The translations under genes were made by a program, and so were the position numbers. The notes under the pieces were generated by a model. That model did not search any database and was not told where the DNA came from. It saw nothing but the letters and a program-made list of their open reading frames with translations. 64,000 nucleotides of DNA, taken from Paraflavitalea sp. CAU 1676. Lineage in GTDB: Bacteria > Bacteroidota > Bacteroidia > Chitinophagales > Chitinophagaceae. Positions 26,253 to 52,097 of the stretch are shown piece by piece. The stretch lies in the NCBI RefSeq assembly GCF_029223285.1, contig NZ_JARHUJ010000002.1:186001-250000 (forward strand), read 5' to 3'. How positions within the stretch are numbered: the stretch's first letter is position 1; every line of letters starts with the position of its first letter.

Positions 26253-26819
26253 ATGAGAAAGCTGAAACTCCAGGTGACGATGACGCTCGACGGATTTGTA
26301 GGCGGCCCCAACGGCGAATTGGATTGGATGACCTGTCCCTGGACGGACGACATCAACCAATACGTGGGCGGCATAGTGAAGGACGTTGATACCATTCTGT
26401 TGGGAAGAAAGCTGGCCGAGGGATTTATTCCTTACTGGGCCGACGTGGCGAAGGAGCCGGAGCATCCGGAATACGACGGCGGCCGGATCTTTACGGATAC
26501 GCCGAAAGTGGTGTTCTCTACAACGATCCAGGAGTCGCCCTGGGCCAATACAGTGATCGCTTCCGGGGATTTGGTGGAAGAGGTCAATCAGCTTAAAAAA
26601 CAGCCAGGAAAGGATATATATACCTGTGGCGGCGCGCAGTTCGTATCGGGACTGGTTGCACACAACCTGATCGACGAGTACTTCCTGCTCGTGAACCCGG
26701 CCGTCATCGGCCAGGGATTAACCATATTCGCCAGCGTTGGCGGCCGCCAGGTACTCCGCCTGGTGGAGGCCGTTCCATTCGAATGCGGCATTGTGGCGAT
26801 GCATTACCGGCCCCAATAG
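26253..26819 (+). CDS. Dihydrofolate reductase-like (RibD C-terminal fold) protein
   Basis: 188 residues. MRKLKLQVTMTLDGFVGGPNGELDWM, DTILLGRKLAEGFIPYW, VVFSTT and DIYTCGGAQFVSGLVAHNLIDEYFLLVNPAVIGQG (split) are the standard pattern of the DHFR/RibD-C family (YyaP/YwjB type). These are NADPH-binding reductases whose substrates are mostly unknown and are not true folate enzymes. A paralogue lies at 29067. Twenty bases after its stop codon the 11-base periodic array begins. Confidence 0.85.
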   Translation: MRKLKLQVTMTLDGFVGGPNGELDWMTCPWTDDINQYVGGIVKDVDTILLGRKLAEGFIPYWADVAKEPEHPEYDGGRIFTDTPKVVFSTTIQESPWANTVIASGDLVEEVNQLKKQPGKDIYTCGGAQFVSGLVAHNLIDEYFLLVNPAVIGQGLTIFASVGGRQVLRLVEAVPFECGIVAMHYRPQ

Positions 26820-26839
26820 CCAATTTCCCGCAAAATAAA

Positions 26840-27026
26840 GCCTGCTTATTGCCTGCACACTGCCTGCATATTGCCTGCGCTCTCTATGTAGAGGTACCGT
26901 ATTTAGGCAAGTGGCGGGCAAGTTCCAGTGAAGTTCCAGACAAGTGGCGGTACATGTAAGACGGACTTCATGCCTGTTTGGGGTCAAGTGGAACAAGTAA
27001 ACCCAGGTCCGGACAAGTCGGATGGG
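26840..27026 (+). repeat. Degenerate tandem array with an 11-base period, left arm
   Basis: Read in 11-base steps from 26840 the units are GCCTGCTTATT, GCCTGCACACT, GCCTGCATATT, GCCTGCGCTCT, CTATGTAGAGG, TACCGTATTTA, GGCAAGTGGCG, GGCAAGTTCCA, GTGAAGTTCCA, GACAAGTGGCG, GTACATGTAAG, ACGGACTTCAT, GCCTGTTTGGG, GTCAAGTGGAA. GCCTG units (26840, 26851, 26862, 26873, 26972) and CAAGT-type units (26906-26949, 26983) stay in the same phase over more than 140 bases. No ORF of coding quality covers it. The phase slips after about 26993. Confidence 0.7.
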
Positions 27027-27038
27027 CGGCCCCAAGCG

Positions 27039-27192
27039 GCAGGGTGGTAGCTAATAGTTAGTAGAATGGCAGTGGACCTCTCAAAGAATGGTACGCGACC
27101 TGTACAGGACCCCTACGGAACCCTTAGTGCCTTAGACCAGTCTCAGACCACCCTTAGGCCAGTCCCAGGCAATACCCCGACAGGTCCGCACC
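27039..27192 (-). repeat. Degenerate tandem array with an 11-base period, right arm (opposite strand)
   Basis: Read on the minus strand from 27170 downwards the units are GCCTGGGACTG, GCCTAAGGGTG, GTCTGAGACTG, GTCTAAGGCAC, TAAGGGTTCCG, TAGGGGTCCTG, TACAGGTCGCG, TACCATTCTTT, GAGAGGTCCAC, TGCCATTCTAC, TAACTATTAGC, TACCACCCTGC. Like the left arm it opens with four GYCT units and later has TACC units, but on the other strand, so the two arms face each other. Some units also recur at twice the period (22 bases). An 85-residue ORF across it (27066-27323) looks non-coding. Confidence 0.6.
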
Positions 27193-27426
27193 AACCCGGC
27201 ACCCATATCGCTAGTCAGCATATAGTATTACAGGTGCCAAAAACGGCCATTGAACCGGAAATCCCGCACTGGCTATTGCCGAGAACTTTGGCGAACCGTA
27301 TATTGGTTCCCGTAAATCATTGAAAATTATCACAAATTAGGGTTAGGCGGGTGCGCGACTGTCAATTCCTGCTTTTATTTGAATACATTGAAGCAACGTT
27401 TTTAACGCTTAAAAGCTGATAGTCAG

Positions 27427-27861
27427 ATGGTAGAAGTATACGATAAGGCCAAATGGCACTTTGAGGGCGATTTTCCGGAGGGACTGGATCCCTTTCAGGG
27501 ATATATTCATACGGGCATGTTCCTGGGATGGCTGATAGACAATGGGTTGGTGAGCGACGACTTCAAAAAAGACCTGCATGCGGAGATCCATGAGTTCAAG
27601 AAAAAGGAGCTTACCGGAGCGCAATTGTTTCAGCGTTGTTGCGACGGCACCTTACTTCCGGAAGACCTGAGCGATGCTGGCAACCGGTTTGCGATGGATT
27701 ATTTCGAATTTGAACACGGACAATACCTGCCCGATTATGGGGAGGTGCTGGGGGCTGACCTGGCCAGCATTTATCATGTTGCCGATACCTGGGAGAATTA
27801 TGAAAAGATAAAGCAGGTCGTCGACCGGCGGTATGCGGAATGGAAGCAAACGCATGCGTGA
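27427..27861 (+). CDS. DUF7832-like hypothetical protein
   Basis: 144 residues, no signal peptide. MVEVYDKAKWHFEGDFPEGL followed by GYIHTGMFLGWLIDNGLV is the pattern I associate with the DUF7832 family, small acidic cytoplasmic proteins that often occur among polymorphic-toxin immunity genes. The protein is rich in Asp, Glu and aromatic residues. No toxin gene is visible nearby. The gene ends about 50 bases before a lipoprotein gene on the same strand. Confidence 0.7.
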   Translation: MVEVYDKAKWHFEGDFPEGLDPFQGYIHTGMFLGWLIDNGLVSDDFKKDLHAEIHEFKKKELTGAQLFQRCCDGTLLPEDLSDAGNRFAMDYFEFEHGQYLPDYGEVLGADLASIYHVADTWENYEKIKQVVDRRYAEWKQTHA

Positions 27862-52023: not shown

Positions 52024-52097
52024 TCGGGACGACTAGATTCGAACTAGCGACCCCTTGCACCCCATGCAAGTGCGCTACCGGGCTGCGCTACGTCCCG
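52024..52097 (-). tRNA. tRNA-Pro (anticodon GGG)
   Basis: 74 bases folding into a cloverleaf: acceptor CGGGACG/CGTCCCG with discriminator A, D-arm GCGC/GCGC, anticodon stem CTTGC/GCAAG around ATGGGGT (anticodon GGG, loop positions 34-36), variable GGGTC, T-arm with TTCGAAT. No CCA is encoded. A terminator follows at 51979-52018. Confidence 0.95.

Follow-up and report, generated by a model that had tools for sequence, protein, structure and literature searches.

The element at positions 26840–27214 of the window, by which is meant the whole stretch of 64,000 nucleotides analysed here (Paraflavitalea sp. CAU 1676, contig NZ_JARHUJ010000002.1, positions 186,001 to 250,000), is a 'solo' array pair, one without a gene, within a genome-wide two-part system. 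The first part of this system is a protein family, mostly of about 180–300 amino acids, with many paralogues per genome in the genus; the second part comprises arrays of 11-bp units, differing in their words, which precede many family genes and are matched by solo arrays between genes. In the genus, family genes and arrays are paired, gene-linked and solo arrays have words in common, and the 11-bp phase is kept. On the strength of these sequence relationships, we give a probability of about one half to the reading that the window element is a solo pair in a gene-array system whose protein would bind its own array once per helical turn.

The element consists of two non-coding modules of degenerate 11-bp units that are joined through a short linker (Table 1). 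The array starts 20 bases past the upstream stop codon, whose end is at 26819; the gene that ends there encodes a product that we take to resemble a dihydrofolate reductase family protein. GCCTGC recurs at 26840, 26851, 26862 and 26873, and the CAAGT/GAAGT units at 26906–26949 keep the 11-base phase of these words. On the minus strand, a quartet of GYCT units (GCCTG, GCCTA, GTCTG and GTCTA) lies at 27126–27169, beyond which the 11-base units continue to about 27039. The sequence-only reading had described these words and their phase, and it was also right that no good open reading frame covers the array (there are only short ones, 26718–27035 on the minus strand with 105 aa and 27066–27323 on the plus strand with 85 aa). 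The right end that it had set at 27192 was too short, as similarity to the best copy (L004) reaches 27214.

Table 1. Window coordinates of the array pair, its parts and the adjoining genes.
Feature	Position	Strand	Description
Left module	26840..26951	+	Four GCCTGCNNANT units, CTCTATGTAGAG centre, then CAAGT/GAAGT units in phase
Four exact-phase GCCTGC units	26840..26883	+	Unit listing, TRF
Linker between modules	26986..27023 (about)		1-base differences in copies L004, L009
Right module	27039..27214	-	11-base units, GYCTNAG.. and TANGGGTCCNG
Gene before array	26253..26819	+	188 aa ORF
Gene after array	27427..27861	+	144 aa ORF; outside array-linked protein family

Autocorrelation of 26840–27214, the check that had been proposed, gave a match of 0.42 (z 7.5) at lag 11 and of 0.414 (z 7.2) at lag 22, with none of 500 dinucleotide shuffles as high at either lag. 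At lags 33, 44, 55 and 66, z was 3.4, 1.9, 0.9 and 2.6, respectively; the series from lag 77 to lag 99 was without signal, and lag 84, which is no multiple of 11, also had a z of 3.7. Since z drops from lag 11 to lag 55, units resemble their near neighbours more than distant ones. The right module alone (27030–27200) reached z 5.7 at lag 11 and 6.0 at lag 22, and the 206 bases after 27214 gave no lag-11 signal (z -0.7). TRF called period 11 at 26840–26878, 26919–26945 and 27134–27168. The array-linked family described below has no gene in the window (both family profiles, E 1e-3), which makes the window element a solo pair. Phages gave no blastn match to 26820–27420, and no inverted ends are evident by eye at the ends of the 375-bp copy (26840 and 27214).

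A search of 59 genomes (the own genome and 58 relatives) revealed at least nine further places in the own 8.84 Mb genome that resemble the window element, and weaker matches in two of the four same-genus genomes. The best copy, L004 in the own genome, is 84% identical over the whole element, its match spanning 26840 to 27214. Partial copies of the left module occur in the own genome (L008, L010, L013 and L014) and in the same-genus genome G001 (L003 and L006), and copies of the right module occur in the own genome at L004, L007, L009, L011 and L012. Ten copies (L003, L004 and L006–L013) are separated from the window modules by 255 substitutions, a count that leaves out L002 and L005, which come from other species and have gapped alignments with net shifts of +12 and +1. 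Within the arrays of these ten copies, the single net phase change found in local alignments, which tend to end at phase loss and may thus hide some shifts, is an insertion of exactly 11 bases in L010; one-base net shifts sit in the linker (L004 and L009), and the remaining gaps cancel within a few bases. Conserved positions are bunched within the unit (mean circular lag-1 0.050 versus -0.102, sd 0.056, with 1 of 300 permutations as high, in 28 modules that had been selected for similarity). Agreement with TCGCT across 15 elements of this type in the genus weakens outward, yet exceeds the off-phase level as far as about unit 10 (2.3 versus 1.1 of 5); that the opening three units are perfect is partly a product of how these elements were located, namely by that word.

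In the stretches of the own genome that were scanned, one unit length prevails, with many words. In a scan of periods 5–30, counting segments that score at least 18 and have less than 30% ORF cover, 864 kb of the own genome (G000) held 11 intergenic arrays of period 11, five of period 22 and zero to one of every other period; simple scaling suggests approximately 110 such arrays in this genome. In G003 (600 kb), periods 11, 22, 7 and 14 were represented by 7, 5, 13 and 8 arrays, respectively; in G001 (400 kb), there were three arrays of period 11, excluding one of four hits that is a run of N, and two of period 8; in G004 (200 kb), there were four of period 11 and two of period 7. In a total of 400 kb from five further genera of the family, there was no array of period 11, and there were six of period 7. 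The array words clearly differ among the arrays printed, and the same word is found at many unrelated loci, also in Niastella and Desertivirga. A general 11-bp excess in the phylum was considered and rejected: the flanks of 43 named Bacteroidota loci contain two period-11 and nine period-7 arrays, in a scan for one TCGCT pattern for which, among the matches listed, some are coding and some belong to other phyla. Clustering of TCGCT arrays near the terminus of G003 was likewise dropped, since the positions fit poorly with dnaA at 7.47 Mb.

These data bear on the possibility that repair or replication in the genus is biased towards 11-bp duplication, so that the arrays would be drifting minisatellites and the gene family would merely carry them. 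Such a bias would accord with the likeness of neighbouring units, with the copy that differs by exactly +11 and with a preferred period that depends on the lineage (11 in G000, 7 and 11 in G003, and 7 in other genera). Nonetheless, it is quite improbable in view of the 255 substitutions accompanied by no net phase change other than 11 inside the arrays (allowing for those that local alignments may hide), of the recurrence of one word at unrelated loci and in other genera, and of the enrichment of arrays at one gene family.

Several further arrays were encountered in the course of this comparison. Many intergenic arrays of 7-bp units are present in L080, L081 and L082 (G013) and in the G003 stretches; the period-7 arrays of G003 and G013 were rejected as part of the same family, as no family gene adjoins them in the stretches examined. 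An 11-bp array in a Flavihumibacter MAG (L138:2099-2310) has arms that are, by eye, perfectly complementary over several units and form a long hairpin. In Capnocytophaga (L145, L148, L149, L157 and L163), repeated 11-bp arrays of the GCGAAGGATAA type adjoin a recurring segment around GTCGGCGAGCTGG. An intergenic array of Aeromonas tecta (L144:4535-4781) has at least 17 units of the TCGCTTTGATA type, and Paenibacillus plantiphilus (L136) carries two intergenic 11-bp arrays, separated by approximately 2 kb, whose words differ.

The protein partner was recognised as a recurrent protein of approximately 230 aa that, at 9 of 35 TCGCT/TCTCT-type elements from five genomes, is encoded downstream on the A side with the same orientation. 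A genus search with one family member returned 22 matches in five genomes. An 11-bp array lies upstream in 21 of these, ending 45–131 bp before the gene, with an AT-rich leader between array and gene, and the remaining match (L332) is a broken remnant; a downstream array within 700 bp was found for none of the 21 array-bearing genes. Array words follow the protein clades (TCGCTATAAGG, TCTCTATAAGG, TCTCG/TCGCGATAAGG and CCGTATAAGG, with GTTCTCTGAAG in one remote member). A wider profile, A2, gave 32 match rows in G000, 53 in G004, 23 each in G001 and G003, and 18 in G002, some of the rows being partial or on a common ORF. Among 20 further own-genome members from the 32 rows, 13 have arrays scoring at least 15, compared with 8 of 493 ORFs in a null set that still includes any family genes (Fisher 6e-16), and seven score below 15; with the lower cut-off of 13, arrays precede 16 of the 20. 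Inside the examined stretches, an upstream array accompanies three of four members in G000 (at -260 to -610), the single member in G004, neither of two in G001 and not the one in G010. The longest next ORFs of family genes are mostly unlike each other, although those of L317 and L319 look alike.

Array-word similarity correlates with protein similarity (Mantel r 0.69, 0/2000); the leader, however, tracks protein similarity nearly as well (r 0.63, 0/2000), so common descent suffices for the correlation, and word-protein co-evolution was discarded as proof of binding. Of the 26 TCGCT/TCTCT-type elements that lack a family gene, 8 have an A-side neighbour pointing away from the array and 18 have one pointing toward it, which does not support a simple operator role of solo arrays. 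An apparent orientation bias of the B-side flanking genes (16/20 by a crude ORF caller) was also discarded, as a hexamer caller gave 16 minus and 15 plus for the 31 of 35 loci that have a left gene.

Solo and gene-linked arrays can be matched directly. The left module resembles the array upstream of C12:901344-902003 (L363) with a best E of 3e-7, in alignments that are inverted over 31/35 and 31/37 bases and direct over 59/90; the right module matches, more weakly, the array upstream of C21:375535-376194 (L362; 29/38 bases, E 7e-4), and in G002 a family gene is immediately preceded by a right-type array (L002). Further matches join L016 and L022 to L364, L038 to L376 and L039 to L371. Overall, of 17 own-genome arrays used as queries, 13 have a counterpart at E <=0.01 among 20 family upstream regions. 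Five of the 17 are related queries that belong to the window family (L004, L008, L010 and two from the window), and two are themselves gene-linked (L026 and L043). The corresponding controls gave a mean of 0.7 and a maximum of 3/17 for unit-permuted arrays (40 runs) and 1/17 for reversed ones. The four queries that found no upstream counterpart were L026, both L045 arrays and L054:166-249.

Such an excess of solo over gene-linked copies of one word recalls mobile satellites: the family protein or another enzyme might copy or move the arrays, in which case the window element would be a non-autonomous copy of gene-linked ones. The 84% copy, whose match starts and stops with the arrays, points in this direction, as does the scarcity of gene remnants (a family ORF lies within 1.8 kb in 4 of 36 array entries). 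This possibility is nevertheless rather doubtful, given that similarity among TCGCT copies fades outward with no sharp end, that the far side of the family gene carries no array, and that no transposase model was matched at E 0.1 by A1 (16 members; Pfam and NCBIfam), A2 (8 members; PHROGs and NCBIfam) or, in Pfam, two further sets of five and six members.

The family extends beyond the genus. Within the taxonomic family, the first profile had matches in 13 of 127 genomes, and within the phylum, A2 had matches in 27 of 296, the own genome included in both cases. Among new loci outside the genus or more distant, an 11-bp array lies upstream in 10 of 16 and is absent in six; in Niastella vici (L194) and Niastella sp. 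OAS944 (L217), the family gene stands directly behind TCGCTATAAGG arrays. For 20 distant members, an array scoring at least 18 was present within 500 bp upstream in nine (period 7 or 14, 8 or 11) and absent at that score in 11, compared with 17 of 240 ORFs from other genera; another null (59 of 199 ORFs with an array, from the named loci) was set aside, since those loci had been chosen for their arrays. Distant members at L380, L382, L384, L387, L390 and L399 lie behind arrays of 7-bp or 8-bp units, e.g., ATTCCCA and CTCAATTC. An 11-bp array is present at the KGTIGN-type member L348 and absent at three others of this type, L343, L347 and L352; a DUF5675 gene follows a KGTIGN-type member in L400 (Marivirga plasmid, annotated) and in L352 (by resemblance).

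An array before each of many paralogues, with an AT-rich leader between array and gene and with 7- and 8-bp arrays before some distant members, might also be read as a device for expression switching, in which changes in unit number tune promoters as at phase-variable loci. This is very unlikely: many units are too diverged for ready slippage, no signal peptide is evident by eye, and switching leaves the solo arrays unexplained. A wider proposal is that a phylum-wide superfamily makes or maintains its own tandem arrays, with a unit fixed by lineage (11 bp in the genus, and 7 or 8 bp upstream of certain distant members), words proper to each paralogue, and dozens of self-recognising pairs plus satellites per genome; this speculation appears unlikely at present.

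In Pfam (which was also run on five and six further members), NCBIfam, PHROGs and PADLOC, nothing aligns with the family part at an E better than 0.01, and PDB sequences give no match better than E 0.6. With regard to anti-phage defence, PADLOC returned no family for eight members at E 0.1. In one protein (L043:4577-5977), the family part is fused to a SUKH (SMI1/KNR4) domain, which is common among immunity proteins. A phage or plasmid origin was considered and rejected: one distant family protein matched nothing in phages or in viral contigs and had one match in plasmids, and P0001 had a single locus in viral contigs, with a 29-residue match. The model of P0001 (16 sequences, mean pLDDT 83) predicts three strands, two long helices and a C-terminal beta sandwich; the three strands and the long helix at its start bear basic residues, in a part where confidence is low to middling (residues 1–10 below 50, and blocks of residues 11–40 at 58–71). 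A second family model (8 sequences, pLDDT 76) has a similar outline, with residues 1–35 below 50. Foldseek returned weak matches to the family models, mostly sandwich domains and no trustworthy DNA-binding protein, and viral models gave no match at E 0.001.

Many elements consist of two facing arrays, which raises the question of a structured RNA built from repeated helices. The facing arrays are partly inverted repeats, with a mean inverted excess of 0.060 versus 0.051 after permutation of unit positions (0 of 200 unit-permuted sets as high, n=20), and 7 of the 20 single arrays show this relation at p <=0.05. By folding (z from mononucleotide shuffles), 6 of 20 arrays reach z <=-2 and four of them (L027, L039, L058 and L072) z <=-4 on at least one strand, whereas 13 remain within z +-2 on both strands. 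The window element itself folds with z -1.6 and 0.0 (-2.2 and 0.1 for a longer stretch against dinucleotide shuffles), its inverted excess has p 0.145, and Rfam at gathering score matches no model to the array and finds nothing in the whole window but one tRNA (52024–52097). Of the options that the sequence-only reading had offered, a putative protein-binding array fits best, RNA helices find no support as the general answer although some arrays do fold strongly, and a plain fossil of slippage is disfavoured. A structured RNA is, in our estimation, the least probable of the alternatives. The binding array is preferred because the phase is kept, conserved positions are bunched and the arrays have an owning protein family. 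A conserved protein in one frame of the array, which might have explained the period, was not found; what is conserved is the family downstream of cognate arrays elsewhere.

The earlier remark that no family of this kind is known agrees with the open-access literature on a limited set of topics. Among known repeats, cyanobacterial STRR sequences occur as numerous intergenic arrays in which the unit length is fixed. The same is described for the TAACTGA heptamers of marine Beggiatoaceae (PMC4679880). Both have 7-bp units and one word, whereas the units here are degenerate, 11 bp long, of many words and accompanied by gene partners. The BrickBuilt MITE of Porphyromonas gingivalis is also intergenic and dispersed, with imperfect tandem units that have conserved and variable parts (PMC4596501). 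However, its unit is 23 bp, it has a leader and a tail with small inverted-repeat ends and 0–6% indels, and its description, in the sections drawn on here, contains no linked gene family such as accompanies the present arrays (PMC4596501). Bacterial genomes show an overall periodicity of approximately 11 bp, which is likewise close to one helical turn and in E. coli is most pronounced in intergenic DNA (PMC516772, PMC4132750). That periodicity is a statistical signal of A/T content linked with supercoiling, in contrast to the discrete units and words common to loci found here.

Two systems come closer. In the ParMRC system of plasmid R1, ParR needs at least two of the 11-bp repeats of parC (PMC9426499), and direct repeats upstream of a gene are bound by an adaptor protein. 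However, ParMRC serves plasmid partition with ParM and a usually ribbon-helix-helix ParR, whereas the arrays described here lie on chromosome-sized contigs, have many words and are linked to a protein without a Pfam match better than E 0.01. REPtrons combine a tnpA-REP gene with cognate REP palindromes dispersed through the genome, and some genomes host several (PMC8266576); a gene beside cognate repeats and many solo repeats elsewhere are found here too. REPs are palindromes of 20–40 bp (PMC3733652). They bear a GTAG motif, and the REPtron protein is an HuH recombinase; here, there are arrays of 11-bp direct units, no HuH/Y1 transposase match at E 0.1 and 18–53 family match rows per genome. 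The REPtron logic is thus the closest, but no transposase was detected by any model tested, and the system is therefore filed under no known family.

If the binding reading holds, the family protein (or an oligomer of it) would bind its own array along one face of the DNA, reading a short word at each helical turn. Binding at the array of its own gene would set the expression of that gene, and solo arrays such as the window element would be further binding sites, serving as remote operators, as decoys that titrate the protein or as anchoring points of the chromosome. The family, large and uncharacterised, would thereby gain a partner and a function, and a cause would be offered for the puzzle of why some genomes contain many intergenic tandem arrays of fixed unit length. 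Moreover, the many paralogous pairs with differing words in one genome would constitute a natural series for studying how a DNA word is read once per helical turn.
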